A stretch of 64,000 nucleotides of DNA, from assembly GCA_024220505.1 (NCBI GenBank), contig JAKZZE010000007.1:620001-684000 (forward strand), written 5' to 3'. Below are positions 20,636-57,559 of the stretch, piece after piece. The notes beneath the pieces are model-generated. The model did not search any database. It was given only the letters and a program-made list of their open reading frames with translations, and was not told the origin of the DNA. This stretch comes from Rhizopus arrhizus. Lineage: Eukaryota; Mucoromycota; Mucoromycetes; Mucorales; Rhizopodaceae. Every line of letters begins with the position of its first letter. Within the stretch, counting starts at the first letter, position 1. The position numbers and the translations under genes were made by a program.

Positions 20636-20637
20636 TA

Positions 20638-26553: not shown

Positions 26554-26555
26554 TA

Positions 26556-28145: not shown

Positions 28146-29861
28146 CAACAAATAAAAGAAGAAGCAACTACAATTCTGGGAAAGAGACTTTATAAAGACT
28201 ATTTAAACCATAAAAAAAGCAATCGATACATCTTTACTAAAGTACAAGTACCATTAGAATAGGAATAGAATACATATGTAATATTAAGAACTTACCTTTT
28301 ATAAAAAAGAGAAGAAAAAAAAAAGAAAAAAAAAGAAAAAAAAAGAGAAGTGCTTTTTTGTAGCTTTATTTTACCAATGTTACACTTATTCACTGTCTAT
28401 CTATATTAGAAAACAAAAACAATTGCTTTTCATGTAGTTTACATTTAATGGTATCCCAAAAGATAACTTATACATTGCTTGAACAAGTTTTATTACTGGA
28501 ATGCAATATGTTTAGGAGGAAGGTTATTATTTTATTTTATTTTATTTTTTTTACTTGAAATAAAAAAAAAAGTCGGTATCTTAACAAATTATAGCAGAAA
28601 AACAACTTCTTTTTTTTTTCTCCCTAGTTTTGTTTCATGGAATACACTAGATGCCAAAGGCATAAAACAAAAAAAAAGGAAAGCTCAAGCACTGGTCAAA
28701 TGTAAGCTTATAAAAAAGTAATAACAACCAAGTCTAATGTCGGTTTCTTTTTTTTTTTTTTTTTTTTTTACATTAGGAATTCCTAATGGGACACATTCGG
28801 ATGACGAACATGAACCTCATGAGCAAAGTTTTTCGCTTTAACACGATAAAACTATAAGAATATCAAACTTATATTACTGCTTGTTGTTAAAAAGCCCTTT
28901 TTGATAAAGAAAGTTGACAATGTTAACATCTCTAATGGCTGATGGCTAATGGCTAATTGCAAATTACACCCATCTGCAAATACAAAGTAAGTAATGAACT
29001 AATATAAGCTTAAAAACATATATTCTTTTGTATTATTTGTCATAAAAAATAATAAAGTAATCTCTTTACTTGAAACCAAAAAAATTGTGCTTGTATTTGT
29101 TAATTATAACTGCCTTGCAACAAAATGTGAGCAGAGCTTCTTTACTTTTTATTCTTTTGAGAATATACACGTATTCTTTTGTTATAATGTAAAAGCATTT
29201 GTATTTTTATAAAACATATTTGTTCTTAGATTATTGTTTTCATTTGAATAAGGAATCTTTTATTGCTATGCTCTTTTTTTTTTTTCACTAGGTCTTTTTT
29301 TTAACTTTGTCTTTTTTTTTTTACTTTTAATCTTTCAGCTTCTTTTTTTTTTTTTTTACTAAACGCAACTATTTTGTTACACCCTGTTACACATTGCTAA
29401 TGAGCTACGCTAAAGATCACAGATTGCCTTCCTAATATGTATTCTTCTGTACAAAATAATCGCACGGTGCTTTTGATTTCCGCATTTTGCCCTCAAAAAT
29501 AAAAAAAAGAAAATATCGGTCTTTAAACAATGGAGAGAAATACGCTTTCCAAAAAAAGATCGTTTGTAAAAAAAAACATTTCTTTAAAAATGTGAATAAC
29601 TCCATGAATATTTACCCTACAAATAAAATAATAACATCGTTAAATTTCTTTATTTTTTTCGCATCTAAATCTTTTTTCAAAATTCGAAAATGATCAATGC
29701 AGCAAGATTTAATTTTTTTCACGAAAAAAAGTAGCAATTTGTTACCCAAACGAAGAGCAATCTTGCGCAATCCGGTACCTAATTGGAACGATTATTTGCA
29801 GTGAATCAAAAAGGAATCAAAGGCGATCATCAACCAAAATCCGACTTCGTCAAGTAAAAGT

Positions 29862-29935
29862 GGTTTCTTGGTGTAGTTGGTTATCACGCCTGTCTAACAC
29901 ACAGGCGGTCGCCAGTTCGAGTCTGGCAGAAATCA
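29862..29935 (+). tRNA. tRNA-Val (anticodon AAC)
   Basis: A full cloverleaf can be drawn: acceptor GGTTTCT paired with AGAAATC plus discriminator A; a D arm; anticodon stem CCTGT/ACAGG with a seven-base loop CTAACAC, so anticodon AAC; and a T arm around GTTCGAG. No intron and no encoded CCA. T-runs downstream at 29952 and 29961 can serve as polymerase III terminators. CACTA element B ends 58 bp upstream, and an LTR of the 30-38 kb family starts about 84 bp downstream. Confidence 0.95.
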
Positions 29936-30018
29936 CATGTATTTACATTTTGGGTATTTTTGTGTCGTATATTTTATTCTCATTTTGGATAGTGTTACAA
30001 ATATTCCTTTTTTGATAC

Positions 30019-30369
30019 TGTAACACGAACAATGATTTAGTCCCCGATACAAACATGTACAATTACAGTTTGGATGAAGAACATGAACTTTAATTTACAG
30101 TTCAGGACAAGAGACAATAGGCACCCCATATTTTTTATATAAATAAGATGAATATTTTGAACAAAATAACAGACATTCAATAAAACAAAATCTTCTTGCG
30201 CTTAAAAAGCAATCTCTTCTTATTGGGTCACAATTACCTTTTCTTTTCTTTTTATTTTACTTATTCTTTCTGATCTGATACCTAAGTTATCATTAATCAA
30301 GAAAGATCCCTTTTATTTTTATCTTTTATTAAACAATCTTACTCTTAACCTCATTGATCTATAAAGATC
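30019..30369 (+). repeat. Eta-family LTR a (351 bp)
   Basis: Starts TGTAACACGAACAATG (also at 37459) and ends just before the primer-binding-like TGGTGGTCACTAC. Contains TATAAATAAG and an AATAAAACA signal. The exact 3' end is uncertain because no CA terminus is seen. Confidence 0.6.
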
Positions 30370-30530
30370 TGGTGGTCACTACTTAAAACCAAATTACTTT
30401 ATCAAAAGAACTGTTAAACGTTCAGTCAAGTTAATCAAACTCAAGTCATTCAAGGCTTCTAACCTCTTATTAAACAAATCTACAACACTTTAATACAATC
30501 CAAATCCCAAGTACTAACAAGTTACAATAC
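30370..30530 (+). mobile_element. TRIM-like internal segment with TGGTGGTCACTAC
   Basis: About 160 bp between LTR a and LTR b, starting with the primer-binding-like site and having no ORF. LTR-short internal-LTR is the architecture of terminal-repeat retrotransposons in miniature. The same leader site recurs at 30882, 34927, 35620, 36089, 36963, 37334 and, inverted, at 51091-51103. Confidence 0.55.
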
Positions 30531-30881
30531 TGTGACCAAAGTAGGCAGTAAAGAGGTTACACGAAGCAAAAGTGAAAGAAGTCGAAAAGTGAAAAAAGTC
30601 AAAAAGTGAAAAAAGTCAAAAAGTGAAAAAAGTCAAAAAGTGAAAAAGGTCAAAAAAATGAAAAAAGTCAAAAAAAAAAAAAAAAATATTATTATTATAT
30701 ATATATATCCCCAACCATTCAGTCAAGGAAGGAAAAATTAGTCAAGTTCTTTTATATTTTTATATATACTTAACTCAATAAAGCAGGCTAACTTACTCAT
30801 AAAAGTTCCTGATCTCTTATTTTACTTTACTTTTTATATTATTTTATCAAGAAACATCGTATTGATCTTACATATAAGATC
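30531..30881 (+). repeat. Eta-family LTR b (different U3, shared U5)
   Basis: Starts TGTGACC and has a purine-rich U3 of repeated GTCAAAAAGTGAAAAAA units (30590-30680). Its 3' part (CATCGTATTGATCTTACATA-AGATC) is shared with 36050-36088. Confidence 0.5.
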
Positions 30882-31042
30882 TGGTGGTCACTACTTAACA
30901 AGCATCCGCTTAAATTCTATATAAAACAACAACTTACAAGGCAATCTTAACCTTACAATCAAGCTTTACAAGCAAACTTTACTCTATTATAACACAAACC
31001 TACAAGCCAACCATATAAAATAACAATACTTCTACCTACAGT
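30882..31042 (+). mobile_element. TRIM-like internal segment behind LTR b
   Basis: Starts TGGTGGTCACTACTTAACAAGC and continues with CTATATAAAACAACAACTTACA, matching 36501-36600 closely. No ORF. Confidence 0.5.
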
Positions 31043-31089
31043 TGTCATCCGCAGTATAATCGCAGCATAGTCGCAGCAAATGTAAAATA
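31043..31089 (+). repeat. Short LTR iota (Gypsy-3-like), left part, split by delta
   Basis: With 34363-34477 this gives an LTR of about 162 bp, beginning TGTCATCCGCAG and ending AAACACGACA. It resembles the Gypsy-3 LTR at 50819 (TATAAATA, CTTTGTTAATTA, TATAAAAAGACTATT and ACGACA in order). No convincing target duplication. Confidence 0.45.
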
Positions 31090-31235
31090 CAGTAGGTGAA
31101 AAAATACGAGCAACCTTTTGGCAAAATCGACTTTTTTCGCTATATCAAAAGGTGCACGCCAACTACCGACTCGGGGCTCCTATGGTATATTTTCGGGGTC
31201 ATGTGTCTTGAAACAGTAATGGTCTCATGTAGTTA

Positions 31236-32865
31236 CAGTAGCGGACAAAACTGGTGCACAAAAATTAAAATCAACATTGCATCTCCGCCATATGTCTGCG
31301 ACTTTTGTGGCATATACCATCTGAAAGACAGTCCAAAATATACATTATGTTATGTAAACCGGAACTGTGCCGGACATCCCCCAGGCATAAGGTCATTTTT
31401 AGTGATTTTTTGCATATTTCAATTTTCGCCAAAAATGTAGTGCTTGTCTAGCCTTCTTTCAATTTTCCCCATATCTCTCCCGTTTGCTTTCAGATTTCAC
31501 AGCATATTAGTAAATTTTAGTAGCTCTTAAAAAATATATAAAACTGTACTTATTTTGTATTTCCCATTGAGTCCCCCCTTTTGTTTTTACCCTATTCACT
31601 ATAACAAAGTACTAGCCTTATATGTTTAAGAAAATAAGCAACTGTAAAAACGAAACTCTGAGATCTCGAACACGCCTAGTTCGTACGACAGCAGATATTT
31701 CTAGAGTAACAAGGATCTCTAAATGGACAATCAACAGGAGAAAGAGGGAAGAAAGAAACTTAATGTCTTGTGATCATGAAGGTATTCCGCTATTAGCCTG
31801 AAAAGTTATTAGTTCAGTCATCAACCTAGAGCTTGGACAAGGTCCGCTACACACAGTTCCTGATGCTCAGCACATTTTGAGGACCTTAAGATACAGTGTT
31901 AGCAGACTGTCAGTCTAAAGGCACAGTAGGAAGCTAGATTTTGAGTCCGGAAGTAAGGAATCGAAGAATTTCATCAGCTGTATAAGTCGGAAAAAGCGAT
32001 GAATGTGGTATCACAACAAGCCATTGTATACTATAGAGGGCTGGAAGTCTGCTATCTTTAGCAATGAAACAAATATGAACATTATGGATGCAGATAGTAT
32101 ACACTAATATTGAAAGCAAGTCGAGCAACCTGAGCGATTTTTTCACGGTGATCAAACAATGAAGCATGCTGGCTGCTCTGTTATGTTTTAAGGCTGTATT
32201 AGATATTGAGGACCAGAATATGTGTGTCAGGTATACGATGGTATAATGAACTCATAAATATACACATATATTTCGCTTACTTCATACCACAAAAGCCTAG
32301 CGTATAGTAGTCTAAAACGTCGTAATCTCTCGTTTCAGTATGACAATGACACAAGGCACAAGTCAACGCATGTCATAAACTCAATATTTGATAACAGCGC
32401 TTCTGTGCTACAAGTTTAGCCGCCACTAATCCCGGCCTAAGTCCGCTTAAGCATGCCAGGTGGCAATTGATGGCAAAGGTATGATGATACGACACTAGAT
32501 CAAAAAGGGTCGATGATCTTTGGAAAAGAGTAGTTAAAGAGCCGGGTTCTTTTATTGAAAATGATATACACGCATATTATTAGCATATGCAAAGAAGAAT
32601 ATCCGATAATATCAAGAGATGAGATGATTATATAAAGTCTAAGATTTTAGCCACTTTTGCGGTTTTTAGAAAATATAAGATTTTATAAATTCAAAGCACG
32701 CTTATCGCTCAGTTTTAACAATGTCATGCTTAGAACATACATAGATTACAATGACTAGTATATCCTCCTTCTAGTACAGTTTCATGACTATTGCAATTAC
32801 CATGAGCAGGTAATGGTAGTTAAAAGCTAAAAAAAAGTTTTGTGCACCAGTTTTGTCCGCTACTG
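31236..32865 (+). mobile_element. Tc1-like gamma-2 (fossil transposase), inside delta
   Basis: 1630 bp, TA-flanked, with CAGTAGCGGACAAAACTGGT ends. Plus-strand translation with many stops and shifts still shows a Tc1 order: RISRVTRISKWTI (HTH), GWKSAIFSNETNMNIM (first Asp replaced by Asn), a VYDGTM-like YTMV stretch, and FSMTMTQGT in place of FQHDNDPKH. The three gamma copies share this decay, so it preceded their spread. Confidence 0.85.
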
Positions 32866-33109
32866 TATACTGGAAATTGTGAGAGAGATAAGAATACGAA
32901 TTTAAAAATTTGACTTCCGGCCAGCTTAAATTATGTACGGTAATCATATGTTTACATTTAAATCAACAAAGAACATATTAGAAGACTATATAGCGTACTT
33001 GTATGGAACTGTGAGTGTTCCTCATTGTATCCATATAAAAGCAAGTGCAACTTCAGGAGCCCTTGGTTTCTTTTTTTTTTGCTCAATTTCTCTCACTACT
33101 TCTCATCAT

Positions 33110-34134
33110 CATGCCTAAATCTATACCAATGGAAAAGCAATCCAGAAATAGAAGGTATATCACTGAATAGCATGAAGCTAGAGGATATCACAGATAAATA
33201 TTACGTTCATTCTCACACAGTTAAAAGGTATACTAGGAAGCTTTTTCCATGAAATTCACATCTGTCGGCTGGAAGACATGCTATTGTCTCTTCTGCCATG
33301 AAGCACTATATCGAGCTGTGTATTATTACTGGTCATCGAATAGTAGCGAAAGAGCTATTTAGGGAGTTGGGTAAGTTTGGTTACTTGTTGATGTACCGTT
33401 CAGGAGTAAACGCGCTGAGATCCATAAACTGTCGCCGAGAGCTAAAAAAAAAGAAGGCATTTTTAAAAAAGGATCATTGAAAAAAGCAGATGACCTGAGC
33501 AAAAAGGCATCGCAACTGGTCAAGTCAAGAGTGATGACCAGTGGCGTTCTCAGCTGAAGCAAAGACTAGCATCTAGTGATCAGATTGAGTAAAGTAGTAT
33601 AGAGTAGTATAAAATGACATTTTGCTCCCTCATCACATCGACATTACAGTAAAGCACAGCAGCCGTAGGATGAACATGTGTTGTCACATAGCTACTCAGG
33701 GACCAGTTTAGACATGTCAGCTTTATGGCCATAACATAAACTCAACGACTTGTCTGCATATACTTAGCATTATTTACATGAATACGTTAGAGTACCATTA
33801 TTTGAAGACATCTGATGTATACCTTCAGAGTGATAGCGGCGTAAAGTATAAGTTAAAATTCATAACTGTATAGGTACGCGGTATCAGTGTAAGGTATATA
33901 AATTATTGGTATGCTCAAAGTCTGAATCTAAATCATATAAAGCATGTTTGGCATCAGCTCAAATTTAATCTGACACCACATGAAGTCGGAGAAAGAGATG
34001 TCAGAAAGCTTTAGCAATTTGTGGATGTAGAGCGAAATAAACTCAATGCAAATGCTTGCAAGAGGTACATCAATAGTATGCCAGCCAAAGTGAAAGCAGT
34101 TATTAAAGCAAAGGGAAGATATAGAAAATATTAA
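33110..34134 (+). pseudogene. Delta Tc1-like transposase relic
   Basis: From MPKSIPM near 33112 the sequence follows a Tc1 transposase with several frameshifts. A helix-turn-helix (LEDITDKYYVHSHTVKRYTRK) is seen in one frame near 33175, and a clean tail (ERNKLNANACKRYINSMPAK, then VKAVIKAKGRYRKY and TAA at 34132-34134). The catalytic segment is too broken to read. Not functional. Confidence 0.7.
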
Positions 34135-34362
34135 ATAAAGATAGCGAATTTTGAAAAATCCTCATTGGCTTTTTTATGACTGTCTTTCCCTTTTTAAAAA
34201 GCTTCTACATCAAGTACAGTCAATCTCTTTAGTGTATTATATGTATCTTTGTTGCCTTAATTAGTTTGCGTGATATCAAAGCTCTGGCGAATATGCACAC
34301 AAAAATAAAAAGATATGAAGACAAATTGAACAGAGGTTGCTCGTATTTTTTCACCTACTGTA

Positions 34363-34477
34363 GTATAAATAGACATTATCTTTATTAAATAAAATCAATC
34401 AATCTTTTACTACTTAATAAGTTCTCGGTACCTTTGTTAATTACTATAAAAAGACTATTCGTGATCAAACACGACAT
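34363..34477 (+). repeat. LTR iota, right part
   Basis: Continues from 31089 across delta. Contains TATAAATAG at 34364, ATTAAATAAAAT, and ends ACACGACA at 34477. Confidence 0.45.
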
Positions 34478-34492
34478 TTGTTGTAATGTAGT

Positions 34493-34926
34493 GTAACAAA
34501 GATTACAACATTAACACCAGCAATGGCTGCGGTTTGTGATTTTTTAATTTTGAACCTTATTCCTTTTTGAACTTTATTTCAAAATCAAACTTTATATCAA
34601 AATCAAACCTTATATCGAAATCAAACCTTATATCGAAATCAAACCTTATATCGAAATGAAACTTTATTTTTCTTTGTCTATAAAATAGACAAGTTTTTAC
34701 TTTTTATTTTACTTCACTTATCTTGACTTATATATTTTAACTTTACTTATCTTAAATATATTTTATCCAATAAATCAAGTATCTTTATCCCTGAATCTTT
34801 TGGTATAACACTCTTAAAACACAAGCAAGACAAGTCCCTTGAAGTCAATTATCTTCATTGTAAACACTCTTAAAACTCTTATCAAGTTACTTTATTACAA
34901 ACAAGTTTGATCTACTTAACAAGATC
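34493..34926 (+). repeat. Eta-family LTR c
   Basis: Starts TGTAACAAAG and ends before TGGTGGTCACTT (34927). It carries a short internal tandem repeat (about 34570-34665) of ATATC(G/A)AAATCAAACCTT-type units. No gene. Confidence 0.5.
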
Positions 34927-35188
34927 TGGTGGTCACTTACAAGCGAACCTAATATTAATACTCTACCCAACTCTTATTTTTTTTTATCCATTTTCATCAA
35001 CTTTACTCTATTTCAAAACCGTTAACTCTTACAAGCCATTGAAGCAACAAAAAATTACAGTAGCACAAATGATGAAATTTTGGATCCTGAGAACAATGAT
35101 GATGTTGTAACACAAGAACCAACTTTTTGAACGAACAAAAGGAACGATCTTTTGGTACGATCTTTTCAAACGATCCAAAAGTTAATGT
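34927..35188 (+). mobile_element. TRIM-like internal segment behind LTR c
   Basis: Starts with TGGTGGTCACTT. Two possible LTR starts (TGTAAC at 35106 and 35189) lie at its end. Small ORFs on both strands are unsupported. Confidence 0.45.
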
Positions 35189-35619
35189 TGTAACAAACAG
35201 GAATGAAACGTCGGAATTTAAATCGTTGCAGTTTATAACGAACGCCTTGCAGTTTACAACAACCACCTTACACTATACAACAACCGCCTCTTATGTTATA
35301 ACAACCATTCAAAATACCAAAAACAGAACAAAATCATAAAACCCAAAAACATATAAATAACCTCACATAATAATCTCAAAAAAATATTACTTCTTAACTT
35401 CTAACTTCCTAACTTCTCTCTTATTTTATTTTTACTTTTTCTTTTTATCAAATAAATATTCTATTAAAGAGGCAAACTATCTCTTATTTTATTTAACATC
35501 AAGAACAAGAAGCCCCTTGAAGCTATTATACTTCATTGTAAATCCCCTTTTTTATTTTACTTTATCTTTTTATTTTTATTCTACCTTAACTAAAACAGTT
35601 TGATCTACTTTATAAGATC
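35189..35619 (+). repeat. Eta-family LTR d
   Basis: Starts TGTAACAAACAGG and ends before TGGTGGTCACTATAAC (35620). It is nearly the same as the inverted copy 51104-51541, including the GCAGTTTATAACGAACGCC region. Confidence 0.6.
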
Positions 35620-35754
35620 TGGTGGTCACTATAACAAGCGAATCGAGCCAATCCAACTCATATAAAAGCAATTATTATACCAATTACAACTTAAATCTGT
35701 TTATTTAAACCTCAACTCAACACACTCAAGCGAACTAGTAAAAATTTATTACAA
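35620..35754 (+). mobile_element. TRIM-like internal segment behind LTR d
   Basis: 135 bp from TGGTGGTCACTATAACAAGC to AAATTTATTACAA. It matches the inverted 50975-51103. Confidence 0.55.
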
Positions 35755-36088
35755 TGTAACGAAAATGGTAATAAGGATACACAGAGATTAGCCGAGTCAA
35801 GTCAGAAAGATAAAAAAATTAAAAATATAAAAAATGTTAAAAAGATAAAAAAAGTTGAAAATATAAAAAAAGTCAAAAAAATAAGAAAAGCTAAAAAGAA
35901 AACAAAAAAAATATTATTCATATATATATCCCATCTTTTTGGGAAGAAATTGTTAGTCAGTTTAAATAAATCATATATTTTTACTCAATAATTAACAAAC
36001 TTTAACAAGAAAGTCCCTGTTCACTTAAACTTTTTACTCTACTTTAACTTTTATCAAGAAACATCGTATTGATCTTACACATAAGATC
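35755..36088 (+). repeat. Eta-family LTR e
   Basis: Starts TGTAACGAAAATGG. The U3 is purine-rich (AAAAAAGTTGAAAATAT-type units, 35815-35910). The 3' part (CATCGTATTGATCTTACACA) is shared with LTR b. Confidence 0.5.
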
Positions 36089-36681
36089 TGGTGGTCACTA
36101 CTTATGTGATATTTAGGGTTTATAATATAAAAAAGTACTAAGTCAATCAACAAATATAAAAATAAGTGAGACTCAAAGTAGATTGTCCTTTATTCAAGTT
36201 AAAAATATGAGGGTATTTATACTTTTCTATCCACGGCTAAATAATAGTATTCACAGTATATGATTATTGATTATTAATCGATATTAGACGATGCGTTAAT
36301 TATATGATTGGTATTGTTTAACATCTTTTATCAAGAAGTAATTATTAATCCTGATCCAGGAACTTGTTAGAATATTCTGGAGTGGATCGGGATATAATTT
36401 TATTTGACGTGGCATAATACAATGTCCGATATTCCTAATTTGGATGATCATTGTTCGTAGTAATTTACAGTATTACTTTATTATATGTGTAAATACCACA
36501 ACTTATCAAGCATCTGCTTAAATTCTATATAAAACAACAACTTACAAGGCAATCTTAACCTTACAATCAAGCTTTATAAGCAAACTTTACTCAAATTAAC
36601 TCACTCACTACAAGCCAACCAAAATACAAATAACATTAATATTGCCAATCAAATCTGACCAAACAATAACTCACCAAACAG
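36089..36681 (+). mobile_element. TRIM-like internal segment behind LTR e, split by solo LTR theta
   Basis: Starts TGGTGGTCACTACTTA, is interrupted at 36105-36500, and resumes ACTTATCAAGCATCTGCTTA. Without the insertion it parallels 30882-31030. No ORF. Confidence 0.5.
36105..36500 (-). repeat. Solo LTR theta (396 bp) with exact target duplication
   Basis: Ends TGTGATATT...AATACCACA with 5-bp duplication ACTTA at 36100-36104 and 36501-36505. On the minus strand it has AAAGTATAAATACCC and then AATAAAGG, so the orientation is minus. No internal region, hence a solo LTR. Confidence 0.85.
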
Positions 36682-36962
36682 TGTAACAAAGAAGCTAAAA
36701 AATGAAAAAAGGCAAAAAAATGAGAAAGGTCAAAAAAATGAAAAAAGTCAAAAAAATGAAAAAAGTCAAAAGAAAAAAAAAAAATTACAGCATATAAATA
36801 TCCTAACCATTTAGTCAAAGAAAAAGGACAGTACAGTTCTACTCATATATTTTATTATATATTTTATTCAATAAACAGGCAACCTTCTCATGAAAGGTTC
36901 CTGATCCCTTTATTTTTATCTTTACATTTTATTTACTTATATTTGATCTTACATAAAAGATC
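36682..36962 (+). repeat. Eta-family LTR f
   Basis: Starts TGTAACAAAGAAGC and ends before TGGTGGTCACTACAG (36963). The U3 has GTCAAAAAAATGAAAAAA units at about 36715-36785. Confidence 0.5.
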
Positions 36963-37333
36963 TGGTGGTCACTACAGTACCTTACTTTGAAATTTCAAGA
37001 AAAACTTCTATATAAAGCACTCAATAAACCCACAAGGTTACAAAAATAACAACAGTATAAATATTGAGGATTTATTCCTCAGGATATAAAAACTTCACTT
37101 CGATCTTTGCACTTTAAAACTTTTACTTACAAAATCTACAACTTTATTTACTTTGTTTTTCTTTGAATAAATTTATCAATTATCCTTTTAAAAAGCTCTT
37201 TTGATATTCTATTATAATTACAAAGTCAAGTCCCTTGAAGCTAACTATCTTCATTGTATCCCTTTTTATTTTATTTTTACTTTAAACAAACCTTTTTACG
37301 AATCAAAACAAGATTGATCTACTTTACAAGATC
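36963..37333 (+). repeat. Internal segment behind LTR f plus a further truncated eta LTR
   Basis: Begins with TGGTGGTCACTACAGTACC. A second primer-binding-like site at 37334 implies another LTR 3' part before it (TATAAATATT near 37050, AGCTAACTATCTTCATTGTA near 37240). Its start cannot be fixed. Confidence 0.4.
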
Positions 37334-37458
37334 TGGTGGTCACTATATCAAGCGAATCAAGCCAAATCCAATTCACAAAAAGTCAACTCTTATATCAATT
37401 ATAACTCAAATCTCTGCTTATTTAAACCTTAACCCAATAAACCCAAACAAAATTACAA
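37334..37458 (+). mobile_element. TRIM-like internal segment
   Basis: 125 bp from TGGTGGTCACTATATCAAGC to AAAATTACAA, similar to 35620-35754. Confidence 0.5.
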
Positions 37459-37979
37459 TGTAACACGAACAATGATTTAGTCCCCGATACAAACATGTGT
37501 CGTATTTACCTCATTAAATACTATTATTCGTATGAGATTACTCAGATCTTATATAAGAAATAACAAGTACTGAATACATAATATTACTTATTACATATTC
37601 CTTAAAAGCTCATATACAATGTTTATATTGTTTAAGCTCAATACTAAAATTGACCTTGAACTCACTTCGGTCCCTGAATAATTTCATTTCCTATATAAAG
37701 GCGTAGTTTGATTAAATGGGTTCTCTCTCTCGTCTTGAAATCTAATAAAGAGGTTACATAGAGACTCATTCACTAGTTTTCAAGTACTATTTCCTTTCTA
37801 TTTCTCACTTTATTATCTGCAAATATCTCAACATGTACAATTACAGTTTGGATGAAGAACATGAACTTTAATTTACAGTTCAGGACAAGAGACAAAAGAC
37901 ACCCCATATTTTTTATATAAATAAGATGAATATTTTGAACAAAATGACAGACATCCAATTTGAATCCAATTCAATCCAA
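37459..37979 (+). repeat. Eta-family LTR h (sister of LTR a), truncated, with a solo LTR inside
   Basis: Starts TGTAACACGAACAATG as at 30019. It is interrupted at 37498-37830 and then resumes ACATGTACAATTACAG as in LTR a. It is cut at 37979 by another TGTAAC start. Confidence 0.55.
37498..37830 (+). repeat. Solo LTR (333 bp) with exact target duplication
   Basis: Starts TGTCGTATTTACC and ends AAATATCTCA. The 5-bp duplication ACATG lies at 37493-37497 and 37831-37835. TATATAAAGG near 37694 and AATAAAGAGG near 37742 give a plus orientation. It belongs to a family not otherwise seen in the window. Confidence 0.85.
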
Positions 37980-38351
37980 TGTAACACACACAATGGGAAA
38001 ATATTAAAAAATTGTACCACAAGAATTGAATGAATACAGACAACTGTATGAATACAGAAATCTGTATGAATACAGACAGTGTCTGAATTCAGATGGCTAT
38101 ACAGATTCATACAAAAATTTTCCACACTAAAAACCAAAAACAACAGATAATCAGAAAACTCAAAAACATATAAATACCTCGACATTTTAACAGCAATCAA
38201 GACTTACTTACTTCACTCTTAACTTTTGTTTTAGTTTACTTTATTTACTTTACTTTTTGATTATTTGAATAAATATCATACAAAGTAAATCTCTTTTGTT
38301 TTTCTTTTATTTTACTTAACATCAAGAACAAGAAGTCCCTTGAAGTATATA
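37980..38351 (+). repeat. Eta-family LTR i, cut by epsilon
   Basis: Starts TGTAACACACACAATG and has short CTGTATGAATACAGA repeats (38036-38110). It ends within the AAGTCCCTTGAAGT stretch that continues to ATTATACTTCATTG in LTR d; here it stops at the epsilon TA. Confidence 0.5.
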
Positions 38352-38420
38352 CAGTGACTCCCAAAAGTGTCCCAATGTTTTGTAATTTTGTCTTTCGCTG
38401 TCATTAGTGCTATTGCTGTT

Positions 38421-38761
38421 TGAAGTGTTTTAAGTATTCAAAAATAAGATAAAGAAGAATTAACGAGACCGAACAATAGTTCTAAAGTCGAATACTTTTA
38501 TTAAAGAAAGATTTCAAGGCTATTTATATTAGTTGAGCAAGACCTGAGATTAGATGACAAAAATAGTTACGACCGATATGATTTGACATGTATAAGAAAA
38601 ATTTTATAGACTGATGTTAATAATCAACTGTTGAGATGAAAGTGAAACTTGGCTGTTTAGGGCAGTGATAATTATCAGGTTCTATTCTTATTCAAACTCA
38701 TTTGTAAAGATTTAGCCCAGAACGATAAGACTGTATCTTATTGACATGTCAAAACATGACA
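38421..38761 (-). repeat. Gypsy-2 3' LTR
   Basis: 341 bp. TATAAATAGCC followed by an AATAAAAG signal on the minus strand. Confidence 0.95.
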
Positions 38762-43471: not shown

Positions 43472-43507
43472 TTTGATGGGAACCAGGCGAGACCAACTAG
43501 CATCAAC

Positions 43508-44044
43508 TTACAAGCCATTAGATTCAATTATTAATGAGAAAGTATCAAGCAGGTCTTCCACTGAATCATGGATATCAGCATCTTTTCTCCAAACGTTACC
43601 ACGCCACTGCCATATTGGGAGATCTGATGGGATAAGGTGGTCCAAGCGAGGATTAGGATTTCTGCTTGAGAGATCAGCGCTAAAGGAAGTATCGCTAATA
43701 GGAGGAGGAGGAGGGACACAAAACGCTTGAGCTTCATCAAGAAATTTGATGCAGTTTTGGATATTCACTGCTCGCTCCTGTAACTTCAACAAATCTTCTT
43801 GTGTAGCACCAGCCACAACAGCACGAGCTATTTGCTGTCTAAGGTTTTCCAAAGTAACCCTTAAACCCATGACAGCGTCCACAGAAGGGTCTTCTATTTG
43901 GGAATTTTCTAGAGTAGTGGATGCCTTTCCTGCATTGGCCATTTCTATGTCTTCATATACTTCAACGTTTTCTTGTACGTTCTTGTTAGGTATAGCATTT
44001 TGATGAAGCACAGATAATTCATAGGTTTGTTCTTTTTCTGTCAT
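43508..44044 (-). CDS. gag: Gypsy-2 Gag N-terminal segment, ended by in-frame TAA
   Basis: 178 codons from ATG 44044, 41 bases inside the 5' LTR. It begins with an acidic low-complexity region and is followed by a heptad-like segment (VTLENLRQQIARAV). The TAA at 43510-43508 falls after ESNGL. The same frame then continues VDASWSRLVPIK into the main ORF, and the join aligns with Gypsy-1 Gag (AHGQALNSNWERLLPL). Hence this is a single nonsense codon, not a gene boundary. A recent mutation or stop read-through are the two readings. Confidence 0.8.
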   Translation of the reverse strand: MTEKEQTYELSVLHQNAIPNKNVQENVEVYEDIEMANAGKASTTLENSQIEDPSVDAVMGLRVTLENLRQQIARAVVAGATQEDLLKLQERAVNIQNCIKFLDEAQAFCVPPPPPISDTSFSADLSSRNPNPRLDHLIPSDLPIWQWRGNVWRKDADIHDSVEDLLDTFSLIIESNGL

Positions 44045-44085
44045 GTCTTGATTATAACCAGTAGTTCAGAATTCGTTAAAAAAAA

Positions 44086-44426
44086 TGAAGTGTTTTAAGT
44101 ATTCAAAAATAAGATAAAGAAGAATTAACGAGACCGAACAATAGTTCTAAAGTCGAATACTTTTATTAAAGAAAGATTTCAAGGCTATTTATATTAGTTG
44201 AGCAAGACCTGAGATTAGATGACAAAAATAGTTACGACCGATATGATTTGACATGTATAAGAAAAATTTTATAAACTGATGTTAATAATCAACTGTTGAG
44301 ATGAAAGTGAAACTTGGCTGTTTAGGGCAGTGATAATTATCAGGTTCTATTCTTATTCAAACTCATTTGTAAAGATTTAGTCCAGAACGATAAGACTGTA
44401 TCTTATTGACATGTCAAAACATGACA
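44086..44426 (-). repeat. Gypsy-2 5' LTR
   Basis: 341 bp, followed on the right by the duplicated CTGTT. The 41-bp leader to the gag ATG has no TGG directly next to the LTR. Confidence 0.95.
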
Positions 44427-44612
44427 CTGTTTGCATAAAATATGTCTTGTTGTACCTCATTTGAAAGCTACGGTAATGTAGATGTACGTGGTACAAGTTA
44501 CATTTCAATTGATGTAACACGGGCGGAGATAAAGCATATACAAAACGAGCGGTGCATTGGGACACTTTTGGGAGCATATTGAAAAAATCGGAATCTCTTT
44601 ATTTATTTATTA

Positions 44613-45644
44613 TTAATAGTCTGTCCAACGTCCTTTGTTCTGAATACACTTTTGTATAAGTTGTGGCATACTTTTTATAACTTTTTGACACTCTTCCGGC
44701 TTCATAAGGTCGTACCAAAGCTTAGTCACACGTTCATAAAGCTCGTTCATGCCTTTTGGTGCAGTTTCATAGTCATTAAGCCTCCTTTTCAACAATGACC
44801 ACATATTTTCGATAGGGTTTAAGTCTGGAGATTGCGCAGGCCATTGTAAAACAGTATAAGATTGTTTTTGGAGGTACTCCTTTACTACTTTTGATGTATG
44901 CTTAGGGTCGTTGTCATGCTGAAAAATCACCTGGTGACGTTCAAAGCCTAATTTACTGACACCATACTCAATTGTACGCTCCACTTCATCCTCCAAAATC
45001 TCTTTATACAATTCTTTGCCCATATTACCATTGATTTTGCACATCCAACCGACTTCAGCATAGGTAATGGCACTCCACAACATAATACTGCCTCCACCGT
45101 GTTTAACAGTCATCTTCACATGATGGGATTTTAGGCTTTCCCCTGATCGAATCCATGCCCAGGCGCGTCCATCCGAATTAAATCTATTGATTTTTGTCTC
45201 GTCTGACCAAATAGCACGTTTCCAGTCATCTACTGTCCAGTCCTTGTGAGTAATACACCAAGAAAGCCTGTTGCGGATATTCTTCGCACTGAGTAATTGC
45301 TTCTTTGGCTTCTCAATCGCACCTAAGCCTGCCTTCCGAAGGACTCTACGAACTGTTTCGACACCTACTTTCTTTCCGATATCGTTTTCAAGGCATTCGG
45401 TAACCTTCACAGCACTTGGAACACGATTTTTCGTGACCTGGCGTACACAGTAACGTTCATCGGCTGCAGACAACACCTTGGGTCGACCCATGTTTGGCTT
45501 CATAACACCAGTGCTATGAGTTTTTCGGAGTCTCCCAACCGTACTCTTGCTTAAACCCGTCAATTCTTCCACCTCCCGAACCGACTTACCTTGTTTAAGG
45601 AGAGAAATAACTTGAAATACCATATCTTGGGGGACGTGTTTCAT
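44613..45644 (-). CDS. Epsilon Tc1-like transposase (DD34E), uninterrupted
   Basis: 343 residues if started at the Met at 45644 (MKHVPQDMVFQ), the usual Tc1 length. The frame stays open up to 45761, which would add 39 residues with no family counterpart. N-terminal helix-turn-helix (SVREVEELTGLSKSTVGRL), then GRPK; a second paired-like helix set (VGVETVRRVLRKAGL); catalytic Asp in WSDETKIN, Asp in QHDNDPKH and Glu in PDLNPIEN with 34 residues between the last two; the VKHGGGSIMLW box; and a GRWTDY end. All catalytic residues are present. It would cut at the epsilon TIRs, but one TIR is now split by Gypsy-2. It could still act in trans. Confidence 0.9.
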   Translation of the reverse strand: MKHVPQDMVFQVISLLKQGKSVREVEELTGLSKSTVGRLRKTHSTGVMKPNMGRPKVLSAADERYCVRQVTKNRVPSAVKVTECLENDIGKKVGVETVRRVLRKAGLGAIEKPKKQLLSAKNIRNRLSWCITHKDWTVDDWKRAIWSDETKINRFNSDGRAWAWIRSGESLKSHHVKMTVKHGGGSIMLWSAITYAEVGWMCKINGNMGKELYKEILEDEVERTIEYGVSKLGFERHQVIFQHDNDPKHTSKVVKEYLQKQSYTVLQWPAQSPDLNPIENMWSLLKRRLNDYETAPKGMNELYERVTKLWYDLMKPEECQKVIKSMPQLIQKCIQNKGRWTDY

Positions 45645-46032
45645 ATTGAGATTTAATGAGCGAGTTATAGCAGAGTAGGAGCTTAAAGCTTTAGCAAATA
45701 ATAATTTGGGCATCAGATACGTTTGCGACGCTAATATATGCAGTTTGGTGATTGTATGCAAGTTGTGGGTGGATATTTTGTAGATATTCCGATTTTTTCA
45801 ATATGCTCCCAAAAGTGTCCCAATGCACCGCTCGTTTTGTATATGCTTTATCTCCGCCCGTGTTACATCAATTGAAATGTAACTTGTACCACGTACATCT
45901 ACATTACCGTAGCTTTCAAATGAGGTACAACAAGACATATTTTATGCAAACAGCAATAGCACTAATGACAGCGAAAGACAAAATTACAAAACATTGGGAC
46001 ACTTTTGGGAGTCACTGTATGTTATAAATGAC

Positions 46033-46105
46033 TTAATACTTCGTAGATCCACCATTGACATCGATTACTGCCTTAATACGCGCAGGCATAGTGTCAATAT
46101 ACCTT
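46033..46105 (-). pseudogene. Tail of a further Tc1-like transposase
   Basis: On the minus strand the sequence reads YIDTMPARIKAVIDVNGGST then KY and TAA (46035-46033), the normal Tc1 C-terminus. It is cut on one side by an LTR scrap starting at 46106. Epsilon lies just beyond its stop. No other part of this copy is seen. Confidence 0.7.
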
Positions 46106-46156
46106 CTGTTAAGGATACATAAGATTATAGTCACTTTATTTTAGTAAAAGGAATCA
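46106..46156 (+). repeat. 5' end of LTR zeta
   Basis: About 50 bp starting TGTTAAGGATACATAAG, matching the minus strand of 8372-8422. It ends where gamma-3 begins. Confidence 0.65.
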
Positions 46157-46158
46157 TA

Positions 46159-47788
46159 CAGTAGCGGACAAAACTGGTGCACAAAAATTAAAATCAACAT
46201 TGCATCTCCGCCATATGTCTGCGACTTTTGTGGCATATACCATCTGAAAGACAGTCCAAAATATACATTATGTTATGTAAACCGGAACTGTGCCGGACAT
46301 CCCCCAGGCATAAGGTCATTTTTAGTGATTTTTTGCATATTTCAATTTTCGCCAAAAATGTAGTGCTTGTCTAGCCTTCTTTCAATTTTCCCCATATCTC
46401 TCCCGTTTGCTTTCAGATTTCACAGCATATTAGTAAATTTTAGTAGCTCTTAAAAAATATATAAAACTGTACTTATTTTGTATTTCCCATTGAGTCCCCC
46501 CTTTTGTTTTTACCCTATTCACTATAACAAAGTACTAGCCTTATATGTTTAAGAAAATAAGCAACTGTAAAAACGAAACTCTGAGATCTCGAATACACTT
46601 AGTTCGTACGACAACAGATATTCCTAGAGTAACAAGAATCTCTAAATGGACAATCAACAGGAGAAAGAGGGAACAAAGAAACTTAATGTCTTGTGATCAT
46701 GAAGGTATTCCGCTATTAGCCTGAAAAGTTATTAGTTCAGTCATCAACCTAGAGCTTGGACAAGGTCCGCTACACACAGTTCCTGATGCTCAGCACATTT
46801 TGAGGACCTTAAGATACAGTGTTAGCAGACTGTCAGTCTAAAGGCACAGTAGGAAGCTAGATTTTGAGTCCGGAAGTAAGGAATCGAAGAATTTCATCAG
46901 CTGTATAAGTCGGAAAAAGCGATGAATGTGGTATCACAACAAGCCATTGTATACTATAGAGGGCTGGAAGTCTGCTATCTTTAGCAATGAAACAAATATG
47001 AACATTATGGATGCAGACAGTATACACTAATATTGAAAGCAAGTCGAGCAACCTTAGCGATTTTTTCACGGTGATCAAACAATGAAGCATGCTGGCTGCT
47101 CTGTTATGTTTTAAGGCTGTATTAGATATTGAGGACCAGAATATGTGTGTCAGGTATACGATGGTATAATGAACTCATAAATATGCACATATATTTCGCT
47201 TACTTCATACCACAAAAGCCTAGCGTATAGTGGTCTAAAACGTCGTAATCTCTCGTTTCAGTATGACAATGACACAAGGCACAAGTCAACGCATACCACA
47301 AACTCAATATTTGATAACAGCGCCTCTGTGCTACAAGTTTAGCCGCCACTAATCCCGGCCTAAGTCCGCTTAAGCATGCCAGGTGGCAATTGATGGCAAA
47401 GGTATGATGATACGACACTAGATCAAAAAGGGTCGATGATCTTTGGAAAAGAATAGTTAAAGAGCCGGGTTCTTTTACTGAAAATGATATACACGCATAT
47501 TATTAGCATATGCAAAGAAGAACATCCGATGATATCAAGAGATGAGATGATTATATAAATTCTAAGGTCTTAGCCACTTTTGCGGTTTTTAGAAAATATA
47601 AAATTTTATAAATTTAAAACACGCTCATCGCTCAGTTTTAACACTGTCATGCTTAGAACATACATAAATTACAATGACTAGTATATCCTCCTTCTAGTAC
47701 AGTTTCATGACTATTGCAACTACCATGAGCAGGTAATGGTAGTTAAAAGCTGAAAAAAAGTTTTGTGCACCAGTTTTGTCCGCTACTG
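46159..47788 (+). mobile_element. Tc1-like gamma-3 (fossil transposase)
   Basis: 1630 bp, TA on both sides (46157-46158 and 47789-47790). The same termini and fossil transposase as gamma-1 and gamma-2. The left flank is LTR zeta and the right flank is Gypsy-3 pol, so the two sides do not come from one uninterrupted target. Confidence 0.85.
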
Positions 47789-47790
47789 TA

Positions 47791-50762
47791 CCTTGAGAAT
47801 CTTCTTGTAATAAAACAGCACCCACAGCAAAATCACTTGCATCACATTCAATTCTAAATGGCTTGCTCATATCAGGATTCATTAATACTGGAGCTGAGGA
47901 TATTTTCTTCTTAATATAATCAAAGCTCTTCTGACATTGTTCATTCCATTGTATCGCACGACATTTAGCACCAACACCTTTCGTTAGATCAGTAAGCGGA
48001 GCAGCAATCCCTGCAAAATTTTTTATAAATCTTCGGTAATGTTGCGCTAAGCCCATAAACTGTCTGACTTGTTGAACATTTATAGGTACTGGCCATTCCA
48101 TTATTGCTTGAACCTTTTTTGCAGCAGGTAGTATCCCTTTGGCACTAATGTTGAAACCTAGGAAAGTTAATTCCTTGCGATTAAATAAGCACTTTTTTGT
48201 ATTTATGATAAGTTTAGCATCATTTAGTTTCCGGAGTACTAGTCCAACATGTTTCTTGTGTAATTCTTCATCACCATCAGTAAATATTAGAATGTCATCA
48301 AGATAGACCATTACAAACTTGTCAATGTATTCAGATAATATATTGTTCATCATTTTTTGAAATGCAGGACCACTATTAGATAAACCAAAAGGCACCACTT
48401 TCCAACAGAATTGGCCATACCTTGTACTTATAGCCGTTTTAAGTGAATCATCATCCGATAGTCTTTGCTGATGAAAACCATTTGTTAAATCGAGCGATGT
48501 AAAATGCTTAGCATTGTATAATCTTTCCAGACATTCATCAATACGAGGCAGCTGGATTTTTTGTTTCAAGGTGACTTTGTTTAGCATTCTGTAGTCGCAA
48601 CACATTCTTAAATCACCATTAGGCTTTCGTACAAACAATACTGGATTAGACCATTCAGATACACATGGTTCTATTAATCCTTTGCTTAGTAGTTCATCTA
48701 ATTGCTTTCGTAGTTCAGCTAATTCAAGTGGAGACATTTTATAAGGTGGCCTAGCTACAGGAACAACATCCGGTTTTGTAACAATTATATCTTGAGTATC
48801 ACGCATAGGAGGCAATCCTGTGATGTGGCCTTTGAAAACATCAGGAAATTCTTTCTTAAATTCTACTGCCCAGGGATCATTTGTGTCATTTATGTTGTTT
48901 ATACAGTTCACACTATTTCCTTTAAATTTAACATCAAGAAAATAACATTCGGTAACTTGATTCTTTTTGAATAAACGTTCCACTTGTTTAGCAGAGATAA
49001 CCATACTGTTGGCTTGTTGCATTGGTTTTTTATCTATGATATCATCCCGAGGCACCATGGTGATTTCATAACCATCCTGCGCAGTAATTGTCCATGAACT
49101 TTCGAACCAGTCCGGTTTGGGTTTGACCTTTTTTAACCATTCATTTCCAAGTATTATGTCGAATTTTGATTCAAATATAAATGTCCTGAAAGTGTTAACA
49201 AAGTTCTTACCCCTCCCCTTTATTTCCATAGTACAAAGTGCTTCACCAGATATGATTGTTTGTTCACCGTTAGCTGTTTCGACAGCTTGATTAGATACAG
49301 TTTTGTAAGAATCAACTAATGGAATTAACTTAGGATGGATATAATTCGCACTAGCACCAGTATCTATTAGGGCGCGAAAAGTTTGACCCCGTATTATAAT
49401 ATCATAAGTGGGTAACGAGGTATGAGTATTAGAGGCGTTCATCAAAAAATCACGATCAATAGATAAGTCAAAGGAGTAGGGAGAGAGGTCAAGTAAAGAA
49501 TCTTTATTAACACTATCAAAGGAATTCAAATTACTAGGATGTCTGTTTTCATGATTGTTATTACTCTGCTCAAAATTAACAAGGTCAGCTTGATAAATTC
49601 TGTTGTTGACTTGAGATCGATTATATTGCTGCCCTTTATGTGAACGGCCATGATTTCTATTTTGTCGTATTCTATTCTGTTCAAATTCACGAACATCTCG
49701 TAGTCTTGTTCTGCATTCAGCTATCATATGTCCCGATTTATTACACCAGTAGCAGATTATGTTACTTTTAGGTTTTTGCTGAAAGCGATCTTGTTGATGA
49801 TAATTGTTTCTGTTGGGCTTGACCATGGCATTTAGTTGTTGCATTAACATAGATAAATCCATAGGATCATTAAGAATATGTTCTTGACGCCCATTAGGAA
49901 CGGTTAATCCAGTTTGTCTAGCACTATCATATGCTATAGCAAAACGTGTAGCTTCTTCCAATGTTCTGGGTTCCTTTGTTATAACATGAATTCTAACATC
50001 ATTTTTCAAGCCACGGACGAATCGATCAAGTGCTTCATCATCTGATATTCTAGGAAGGTCCAGTAGTATGTCTTGGAAGTTGTCAACATAGTCTACCACC
50101 GAGGTTACTTGTTTCGAATTTGCTAAATTGTCTCTTGCGGCTTGTTCAGAATAAGCTGGTTTAAATGCAAAATCTAACAGTAATTTGAATCTTTCCCAAG
50201 TTGTAGGAGTCTCATCTCTCTGTACTAGCTGATTCCACCATTTTTGAGCTCGACCCCTTAATAGCGTAATTGCATATGGTAATCTTCTTTCTTGAGGTAC
50301 ATTATTGAATTCATGGTATCTCTCTACTTCTTCAGTCCATAATCTTATAACGGCAGCATTTCTTTCTCCATTATATGTAGATGGTATTGGAATACGAACA
50401 TTGCTTGTTTCATTAGACTTGTTATTTATTGCTGTAGATACAGCACTAGCTATTAACTGGGCTAAATCTTGCATATTTATATTATTTTGCGTCATTTTAC
50501 TATCTTCTATTATAGTGTCTTCTTCAATTAAAGGTTGCTTATTACTATTTAAAATAAAGCTTGTTGCTATTTTCGAGGCTATTGCGTCCAAATATTCTTC
50601 TGTTTTGATACTGTAATTTTGTTTTTGGTTTTCAGGTAAAGAGGGTACCTTGCGATATAAAATATACTTGCTTCTAAATTCTGGTGGGAGTAACTTGTAT
50701 ACTCTTTCTTCAATTTCAAATGTCTTTTGTTCTTGAGATAAGGGATTCTTTCCGCTTGACAT
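47791..50762 (-). pseudogene. gag-pol: Gypsy-3 Gag-Pol, truncated in RNase H by gamma-3
   Basis: About 990 codons from ATG 50762. Gag with a matrix/capsid-like region (RLWTEEVERYHEF, LLRGRAQKWWNQL, about 140-250), a CCHC knuckle CYWCNKSGHMIAEC (~335), protease LIDTGAS (~466), reverse transcriptase with VYLDDILIF (~817) and the start of RNase H (ECDASDFAVGAVLL, ~970). It stops at the gamma-3 TA; the open frame runs 31 codons into gamma-3 (to 47694), giving a chimeric end. The rest of RNase H, integrase and 3' LTR are absent. A different Ty3/Gypsy lineage from Gypsy-1 and -2, judged by its CCHC motif and tRNA-type primer site. Confidence 0.85.
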
Positions 50763-50801
50763 TAATTTTAATTCGTTGTTGCAAAGGCTTGCAGATATTT
50801 A

Positions 50802-50816
50802 CAACAGATGCTACCA
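50802..50816 (-). other. Gypsy-3 primer-binding site
   Basis: Minus-strand TGGTAGCATCTGTTG begins two bases inside the 5' LTR. It would pair with a tRNA ending GATGCTA-CCA. This contrasts with Gypsy-1 and -2, where no such site is visible. Confidence 0.65.
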
Positions 50817-50818
50817 AT

Positions 50819-50974
50819 TGTCGTAGTTGCTCACCAATAGTCTTTTTATATTAATTAACAAAAGTATAGATAACTTATTAAAATAGTGAATGAGTCTTTA
50901 TTTAATTAAAATAGAGGAATATTTATATTATTTCTATATGCTGCGGTTGTGTATCTATTATTTTAATATTGTAA
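50819..50974 (-). repeat. Gypsy-3 5' LTR (short)
   Basis: The plus strand starts TGTCGTAGTTGC, so the LTR 3' end reads CTACGACA on the minus strand. About 155 bp, with TATAAATATT and AATAAAGAC on the minus strand. The outer end merges with the eta internal segment near 50975 without a clear TG. It resembles LTR iota (31043-34477). Confidence 0.55.
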
Positions 50975-51541
50975 TAAATTTTTACTAGTTCGCTTGAGTG
51001 TGTTGAGTTGAGGTTTAAATAAACAGATTTAAGTTGTAATTGGTATAATAATTGCTTTTATATGAGTTGGATTGGCTTGATTCGCTTGTTATAGTGACCA
51101 CCAGATCTTATAAAGTAGATCAAACTGTTTTAGTTAAGGTAGAATAAAAATAAAAAGATAAAGTAAAATAAAAAAGGGGATTTACAATGAAGTATAATAG
51201 CTTCAAGGGACTTCTTGTTCTTGATGTTAAATAAAATAAGAGATAGTTTGCCTCTTTAAAAGAATATTTATTTGATAAAAAGAAAAAGTAAAAATAAAAT
51301 AAGAGAGAAGTTAGGAAGTTAGAAGTTAAGAAGTTAAGAAGTAATATTTTTTGAGATTATTATGTGAGGTTATTTATATGTTTTTGGGTTTTATGATTTT
51401 GTTCTGTTTTTGGTATTTTGAATGGTTGTTATAACATAAGAGGCGGTTGTTGTATAGTGTAAGGTGGTTGTTGTAAACTGCAAGGCGTTCGTTATAAACT
51501 GCAACGATTTAAATTCCGACGTTTCATTCTTGTTTGTTACA
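50975..51541 (-). repeat. Eta-family LTR plus internal segment, inverted
   Basis: LTR 51104-51541 (minus, starts TGTAACAAACAAG) and internal 50975-51103 with the primer-binding-like site at 51091-51103. Nearly the same as 35189-35754. Its start lies about 180 bp beyond the 3' end of tRNA-Asn. Confidence 0.6.
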
Positions 51542-51722
51542 ATATTGAATGTATGGTGCTGCGGTTTCTACTGCGGTTGATATATTGTTTTTGAATAGCC
51601 AAAAGAAGTACAATGTAGCATACCAAATTTAGAATGAAAAGTATGACAGCAGCCGAACAAAAGTACGACACACAAGAAAATACAAAAAAGGTGAGAGCCC
51701 CAGAAGAAAAGGGAAACTGCTA

Positions 51723-51796
51723 CGCTCCTAGGTGGGCTCGAACCACCAACCTCCTGATTAACAGTCAGACGCGCTAGCCAATTGCGCCATAAGAGC
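51723..51796 (-). tRNA. tRNA-Asn (anticodon GTT)
   Basis: Minus-strand cloverleaf: acceptor GCTCTTA with TAGGAGC plus discriminator G; D arm GGCGCAATTGGCTAGCGC; anticodon stem TCTGA/TCAGG with loop CTGTTAA, so anticodon GTT; and T arm GGTTCGAGCC. No intron. A TTTT polymerase III terminator is at 51706-51709. CACTA element C begins 56 bp upstream (at 51853). The 101-codon minus ORF across it is a shadow. Confidence 0.95.
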
Positions 51797-52695
51797 TTGT
51801 TAATATTGACAGGTAACTGGTAATTGTGGGCGATAAACTCAACTCGGTTCGGCACTGCAAATAATCGTTCCAATTAGGTACCGGATTGCGCAAGATTGCT
51901 CTTCGTTTGGGTAACAAATTGTTACTTTTTTTCGTGAAAAAAATTAAATCTTGCTGTATTGATCATTTTCGAATTTTGAAAAAAGATTTAGATGCGAAAA
52001 AAATAAAGAAATTTAACGATGTTGTTATTTTATTTGTAGGGTAAATATTCATGGAGTTATTCATGTTTTTAAAGAAATGTCTTTTTTTACAAACGATCTT
52101 TTTTTGGAAAGCGTATTTCTCTCCATTGTTTAAAGACCGATATTTTCTTTTTTTTATTTTTGAGGGCAAAATGCGGAAATCAAAAGCACCGTGCGATTAT
52201 TTTGTACAGAAGAATACATATTAGGAAGGCAATCTGTGATCTTTAGCTAAGCTCATTGGAAATGTGTAACAGAACGTAACAAAATAGTTGCGTTTAGTAA
52301 AAAAAAAAAAAGAAGCTGAAAGATTAAAAGTAAAAAAAAAAGACAAAGTTAAAAAAAAGACACAGTTAAAAAAAAAAGACAGCGAAAAAAAAAAAGAATA
52401 TAGCAATAAAAGGTTCCTTATTCAAATGAAAACAATAATCTAGAGCAAATATACTTTATAGAAATGCAAATGCTTTTATGTTATAACAAAAGAATACTTG
52501 TATATTCTAAAAAGAATAAAAAAATAAAGAAGCTTTGCTCACATTTTGTTATAATTAACACATACAAGTACAGCGTTTTTGTTTTTCAAGTAAATAGATG
52601 GCTTTATTATTTTTTATGACAAATAATACAAGAGAATATATGTTTTTAAGCTTACACTGGTTCATTACTTACCTCATGTTTACACATGGGTGTAA

Positions 52696-53361: not shown

Positions 53362-53397
<36 letters not shown>

Positions 53398-57381: not shown

Positions 57382-57445
<64 letters not shown>

Positions 57446-57557: not shown

Positions 57558-57559
57558 TT

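Follow-up and report, generated by a model that had tools for sequence, protein, structure and literature searches.

The 64,000-nucleotide stretch of the Rhizopus arrhizus genome analysed here (contig JAKZZE010000007.1, positions 620,001 to 684,000; hereafter the window) carries three DNA transposons, A, B and C, inserted upstream of two tRNA genes (Table 1). B and C, both of family 1, are CACTA (En/Spm) elements by their CACTA/CACTG inverted-repeat termini (CACTGCAAATAAT at both ends of each, with exact copies at 27127(+), 29803(-), 51853(+) and 59256(-)), by 3-bp target-site duplications, which are perfect in 21 of 35 complete elements, B and C included, and by a Tnp2-type transposase. Element A belongs to a fourth family and lies to the left of B, the two forming one stack upstream of tRNA-Val. 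The initial annotation held that B ends at 29803, 58 bp from the start of tRNA-Val at 29862, that C starts at 51853, 56 bp from the 5′ end of tRNA-Asn at 51796, that both present the same end to the tRNA, and that their target triplets (AAT and CGG) differ. ARAGORN and the exact termini bear out both gaps; the inward terminus, CACTGCAAATAATCGTTCCAATTAGGTACC, is identical over 30 bases in B and C (0 mismatches at both), and each triplet is present on both sides of its element.

Table 1. Transposons, target tRNA genes and associated features of the window (T, inward, tRNA-side terminus; D, far terminus; LTR, long terminal repeat; TSD, target-site duplication; aa, amino acids).
Feature	Position	Strand	Remarks
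Solo LTR, 5′ part	20973..21632	+	starts TGACAG; LTR inserted 9 bp ahead of tRNA-Val and since interrupted by A and B
Element A, fourth family, 5491 bp	21633..27123	+	far end CACTGCACATAAT at 21633; tRNA-side end CACTGCACCCAATCACC at 27123
AAT between A and B	27124..27126	.	duplication common to both insertions
Element B, family 1, non-autonomous, 2677 bp	27127..29803	-	TSD AAT/AAT; tRNA-side end at 29803
AAT duplication and 3′ end of split LTR	29804..29852	+	LTR end ..GACTTCGTCA
tRNA-Val(aac), target gene	29862-29936	+	ARAGORN; 58 bp from B
tRNA-Asn(gtt), target gene	51723-51796	-	ARAGORN, also Rfam RF00005; 56 bp from C
Interval from C to tRNA-Asn, 56 bp	51797..51852	-	CGG duplication 51850-51852; LTR remnant ending ..CCTGTCA
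T terminus of C	51853..51882	+	115 genomic copies with at most 3 mismatches; reversed control 0
Element C, CACTA of family 1, 7404 bp, encoding transposase and accessory protein	51853..59256	+	TSD CGG/CGG
Transposase, 886 aa (own splice model)	53186..56114	+	exons 53186-53315, 53405-53488, 53563-54891, 54997-56114; Transposase_21/tnp2
Accessory protein, 359 aa (own splice model)	56275..57557	-	exons 57557-57138, 57061-56801, 56730-56557, 56499-56275
D terminus of C	59227..59256	-	followed by CGG 59257-59259

The order of events at tRNA-Val can be read from the nested flanks. A solo LTR came first, A then entered it at an AAT, and B entered the same AAT. The LTR, called as such from its TG..CA ends and a 4-bp duplication, has AGTA on either side, its 3′ part ending in GTCA at 29852, and A is flanked by AAT at both ends. 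Uninterrupted copies of this LTR at three other loci (L003, L032 and L063; L-numbers denote loci taken from the window's own assembly) match 57 of 58 aligned bases of a 60-base probe made by joining the flanks around A and B. For C, a 57-base probe built in the same way aligns with L063 over 54 bases without a mismatch. In these empty-site paralogues the target triplet is present as a single copy.

Across the assembly, the sole genome analysed (50,257,186 bases in 41 contigs), such elements have inserted at a fixed distance from tRNA genes, with a strong orientation bias, into many target sequences, repeatedly at the same place and in several families. Exact copies of CACTGCAAATAAT number 545 (reversed control 0), and T ends with at most 3 mismatches in 30 bases number 115, 71 and 105 for families 1 to 3 (291 in total), of which 100, 71 and 100 places, respectively, are listed. 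A tRNA B box follows 63 of the 545 exact ends at 95-125 bp, vs two at 126-156 bp (one counted double) and ten at 64-94 bp, the last being one repeated non-tRNA context as judged from the letters. Ends facing the 3′ side of a tRNA gave eight pattern matches, every one within stacked elements. The 63 sites, whose sequences come from the large loci and the window (18), from L072-L111 (40) and from L116-L120 (5), comprise 60 T ends and 3 D ends; ARAGORN calls a tRNA at 57, and the remaining 6 are tRNA-like by eye. Two loci redundant with the window (L050 and L051) are excluded from all counts.

Distances from element to called tRNA were obtained for 59 sites, a set that includes B, C and two sites beyond the 63. 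The distance falls within 54-59 bp at 58 of them and is 49 bp at the other (mean 56.1, standard deviation 1.55), and the T end is inward at 56 and the D end at 3 (two-sided binomial 1e-13). One of the 59, L075, has two tandem ends, of which the inner (33 bp) was dropped and the outer kept at 56, and the tRNA predicted there (Tyr, anticodon ata, 97 nt) is a doubtful call. The narrow peak near -55 to -60 with one orientation that the initial annotation had proposed to look for is thus present. Chance would yield about 0.017 sites per 6-bp interval genome-wide, given 291 inward ends and a generous 500 tRNA genes, vs the 59 measured. The D ends serve as an internal control: an intact tRNA lies at 40-70 bp beside none of 58 D ends vs 17 of 80 T ends.

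The association also holds in samples chosen by other means. A set of 77 T ends was drawn from the large loci and the window, all but B and C (75) picked without regard to tRNAs. An intact tRNA lies at 55-58 bp from 17 of them, and another 17 face a tRNA fragment or tRNA-like sequence (7 by script; 3 fragments and 7 tRNA-like sequences by eye). An LTR start takes the place of the tRNA at 15 (14 by script at 49-53 bp, 1 by eye), 23 adjoin another element (22, and 1 by eye), and 5 are unaccounted for, so that the opposite picture, with most copies far from polymerase III (Pol III) genes and at random spacing, is absent. Of the 38 T ends lacking a called neighbour, 12 were classed by eye. A scan of 20 loci, most of them containing uncalled ends, with Rfam gathering thresholds yielded two tRNAs and nothing else, so no other RNA family accounts for these ends. 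Viewed from the tRNA side, 63 genes were ranked by Rfam score alone (the best 63 of 2878 candidates) and chosen regardless of transposons. At least 21 of them have an element end 50-59 bp upstream, namely 18 T ends of families 1-3, 2 family 4 ends at 55-56 bp and 1 D end (L077); the count is a lower bound, 20 T ends being absent from the matches listed. Among those matches, 36 of the 63 genes have a T end at most 12 kb upstream, which faces the tRNA in 33.

The reach of this habit differs from that first proposed, being broader than two copies, as four families share it, and narrower in its target, which is tRNA genes. Among Pol III genes, the insertions were seen at tRNA genes; no U6 gene (14 over the cut-off) or 5S gene (1) has a T end within 98 kb among the matches listed.

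Three of the four families (1-3) encode their own transposase, those of families 2 and 3 being about 70% identical to that of family 1. Fourteen genomic copies of the family 4 inner end have a tRNA B box spaced in the same way, and no transposase was found in element A (5491 bp). Successive insertions have built stacks in which 23 of 26 junctions are head to tail, counting CACTGCACATAAT ends as D ends. The position that an older insertion held is its new distance plus the gap minus 3, as each insertion duplicates 3 bp, and 14 older insertions reconstruct in this way to 55-60 bp, beside 17 inner ones at 55-58. One tRNA-Ser has been struck by four families, at 55, 55, 56 and 55 bp. Some family 3 derivatives of about 4.5-5 kb (L004, L011, L020, L044 and L068) match just the last 49 transposase residues and retain the accessory gene, as if it were kept for its own sake.

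The spacing indicates where the ruler starts. Distance to the B box varies with a standard deviation of 5.3 vs 1.55 for distance to the tRNA 5′ end. Genes with a long variable arm or an intron keep nearly the same 5′ spacing (mean 55.7, n = 16, vs 56.3, n = 43, for the rest; p 0.06), which argues that the ruler begins at the tRNA 5′ end or start site and not at the B box. Whether the transposase instead reads a DNA sequence upstream of tRNA genes, either the ends of resident LTRs or a host promoter element, deserves attention, because one of 16 LTR-end motifs lies between element and tRNA at 36 of the 59 sites, close variants of these motifs can be seen by eye at several of the remaining 23 (the window's tRNA-Asn included), and flanks form families common to different tRNA genes. 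Yet at those 36 sites the distance from T end to tRNA is independent of that from LTR to tRNA (rho 0.07, p 0.69), whereas the distance from T end to LTR depends on LTR position (rho -0.66, p 1e-5), so the spacing follows the tRNA rather than the LTR end. The 23 sites lacking a listed motif still average 56.3, and 95 flanks sort into 41 dissimilar context clusters. In L112, L114 and L115 the LTR arrived after the CACTA element, and once it is removed with one copy of its 4-bp duplication (the duplications in L112-L115 were read by eye), the spacing is 55-57. Nor does the target triplet show a motif over shuffles (26 contexts, 54 flank positions), flank base 11 being the sole position slightly over the 95% shuffle level (0.54 vs 0.50). 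Targeting of LTR ends is thereby largely refuted, and recognition of an upstream DNA sequence in general is very improbable.

Two explanations that dispense with targeting fare worse. Random insertion followed by selection sparing harmless places upstream of tRNA genes appeals to the general knowledge that gene-dense genomes favour elements in such places, but selection is not expected to yield a standard deviation of 1.5 bp, a favoured orientation and repeat strikes within 1-2 bases; it is rejected as having next to no chance of being correct. Spread of a few element-plus-tRNA units by segmental duplication would fit the 7 pairs among the 59 sites that are at least 85% alike over 150 bp, of which one, L099 and L119, is identical. 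As a general account it is refuted, and scarcely credible, given that the 59 sites span 17 tRNA isotypes and 34 distinct flanking triplets, beside the 41 context clusters and four families. Another reading is that, instead of TFIIIB, the complex senses chromatin, either the boundary of the first nucleosome upstream or an open region next to the tRNA gene, by way of the transposase's putative BAH-like domain described below; this is unlikely.

The proteins encoded by element C are those of a DNA transposon, no reverse transcriptase match, as would mark a tRNA-targeted retrotransposon, being found in its two genes. The transposase matches PF02992 (E 4e-19), as do 32 of 32 relatives, and its D273, D364 and E625, which we take to be the catalytic residues, fall in columns invariant in those relatives. 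A structure model of a relative's transposase (P0002) has a RAG1-like core and a putative BAH-like C-terminal domain, so the catalytic part of the CACTA transposase is predicted to have a RAG1-like fold; neither a relative of the transposase nor a RAG1 sequence match was found in the PDB sequence set. RAG1, ProtoRAG and Transib differ from these CACTA elements in ends and duplications. No TnpA-like Pfam model matched the protein of the second gene, the accessory protein, which has 13 homologues, every one named Rhizopus, at up to 93% identity. Its N-terminal tail (~MSRR.A.P.N.PSNAPKRAR) is strongly conserved in most copies that have that end, and its structure model is poor (mean predicted local distance difference test score 52). 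Assignment of the accessory protein to TFIIA was rejected: the PF03153 match scores 33.6 bits, under the cut-off of 36.2, and runs over a poly-Q and acidic stretch, so it is most likely a composition effect. The TFIIA label borne by 3 of the 13 relatives was given no weight.

Taken together, we estimate a probability of about three in four that these CACTA transposons are guided by position to tRNA genes, with a complex that likely docks on the Pol III initiation complex. In this view the transposase, alone or together with the accessory protein, would form an asymmetric assembly on the two dissimilar ends, T and D, and the loaded complex would dock on the initiation complex at the tRNA promoter. 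TFIIIB occupies the DNA immediately ahead of the start site, so its outer edge would form a natural stop; this upstream edge is most likely both docking place and ruler. Strand transfer with a 3-bp stagger would follow, leaving the T end nearest the gene. Since non-autonomous copies such as B land the same way, they are presumably moved by proteins supplied in trans. As the tRNA promoter would be left in place and the target site re-formed after every insertion, newer copies would shift older ones outward into stacks.

Several observations weigh against guidance by a Pol III complex. All insertions are standing copies in one assembly, and any contact of the transposase or accessory protein with TFIIIB or TFIIIC is putative. 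At three of the 63 sites it is the D end that points inward, 3 of the 26 stack junctions depart from the head-to-tail order (two D-D, one T-T), and 14 of the 35 complete elements lack a perfect duplication, several of them in stacks. The five T ends with neither a tRNA-like neighbour nor a stack comprise one odd case (C8:192555) and four unexplained ones (C3:1470884, C3:1786950, C5:839887 and C4:1485637), and in L113 the spacing without the LTR is about 34 bp rather than 56. U6 genes may also use TFIIIB, and since none is hit among the matches listed, TFIIIC or another tRNA-specific feature may matter too.

In this genome, the 5′ flanks of tRNA genes receive insertions from mobile elements of several kinds. 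Many LTR-like families (TG..CA, with 4-bp duplications in those checked) terminate 4-12 bp ahead of tRNA genes, as in L112-L115 and in the window at 20973-21632 with 29807-29852. One or more further repeats, starting near (G)TTAAAGATTTT, ACGAAGATTTTT or GAAAATTTATG, break tRNA genes in the D-loop right after the A box (for example, TAGCTCAG); they occur in L024, L025, L041, L055, L062, L063 and L069, close to the position used by Dada transposons (nt 8-13). Four flank-context clusters (1, 11, 13 and 17) hold antisense-tRNA-like pieces by eye, common to different tRNA genes. Elsewhere in the window, 8812-20637 consists of five tandem 2546-bp units with self-matches of 97.9-99.6%, each containing a Tc1/mariner-type open reading frame (by eye) and 222-bp inverted repeats. 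A Ty3/gypsy element with a chromodomain occupies 2142-8138 and must be recent because its two 579-bp LTRs are identical. The GC-rich segment 60083-63885 (48-49%) carries two long open reading frames of an element resembling a long interspersed nuclear element (endonuclease and reverse transcriptase by eye).

Published systems offer close parallels. TRE5-A, a Dictyostelium non-LTR retrotransposon, inserts 40-54 bp upstream of the mature tRNA in one orientation, and its ORF1 protein interacts with TFIIIB subunits (PMC5911963). The CACTA elements share with it a narrow, oriented window at a fixed distance upstream of the tRNA. TRE5-A, however, uses target-primed reverse transcription, whereas the R. 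arrhizus elements are of the DDE type and sit at 54-59 bp with 3-bp duplications; protein contact is established for TRE5-A, whereas for the CACTA elements we infer it. LTR retrotransposons of the Ty3 and DGLT-A type also insert close to tRNA genes, Ty3 via TFIIIB, but do so nearer the start site and with an integrase, DGLT-A in either orientation (PMC5911963). The R. arrhizus LTRs 4-12 bp upstream of tRNAs resemble them in position. Among class II elements, Dada transposons are aimed at tRNA and other small RNA genes, inserting inside the genes at conserved sequences with 6-7 bp duplications (PMC8869645), whereas at all 59 measured sites the CACTA elements lie outside the gene, 49-59 bp away, and they have a 3-bp duplication and no shared target sequence.

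Other reports bear on related elements. In Cryptococcus, CNIRT6 (CACTA, with CACTG ends and a CMC supergroup transposase) and CNEST (EnSpm-like, CMC) were caught in a protein-coding reporter gene, and tRNA was looked for in the main text of that paper and not found (PMC12810828). In Rhizopus oryzae 99-880, Ty3 LTR elements often co-localise with tRNA genes and En/Spm elements make up 0.68% of the assembly, the available parts of that paper containing no statement on tRNA for En/Spm (PMC2699053). Insertions of Mu and P close to rRNA and tRNA genes are reported to occur about as often as expected at random (PMC7337890). The open-licence literature, in the parts seen, describes retrotransposons and Dada at tRNA genes and no CACTA element upstream of them. 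As far as searched, fixed-spot targeting ahead of tRNA genes has so far been described mainly for retrotransposons, and the CACTA case appears new.

It seems fairly probable, then, that a class II lineage has independently evolved the lifestyle of TRE5 and Ty3, a RAG1-like transposase with a putative BAH-like chromatin-reading domain and an accessory protein docking on the Pol III complex as a ruler and placing the element at about -56 in a set orientation. This would be the first DDE cut-and-paste DNA transposon, as far as searched, for which a protein complex rather than DNA sequence leads the way to tRNA genes, a trait maintained in four families or more. Fixed-distance targeting of Pol III genes, described for retrotransposons of yeast and amoeba, can arise in an unrelated integration machine, here with almost base-pair precision, and the choice of a target by protein landmark in DDE elements becomes testable with two element-coded proteins. 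Such a system could inform the design of tools for site-directed gene insertion at safe places upstream of tRNA genes. For R. arrhizus itself, the tRNA loci of the genome become readable as ordered logs of successive insertions.

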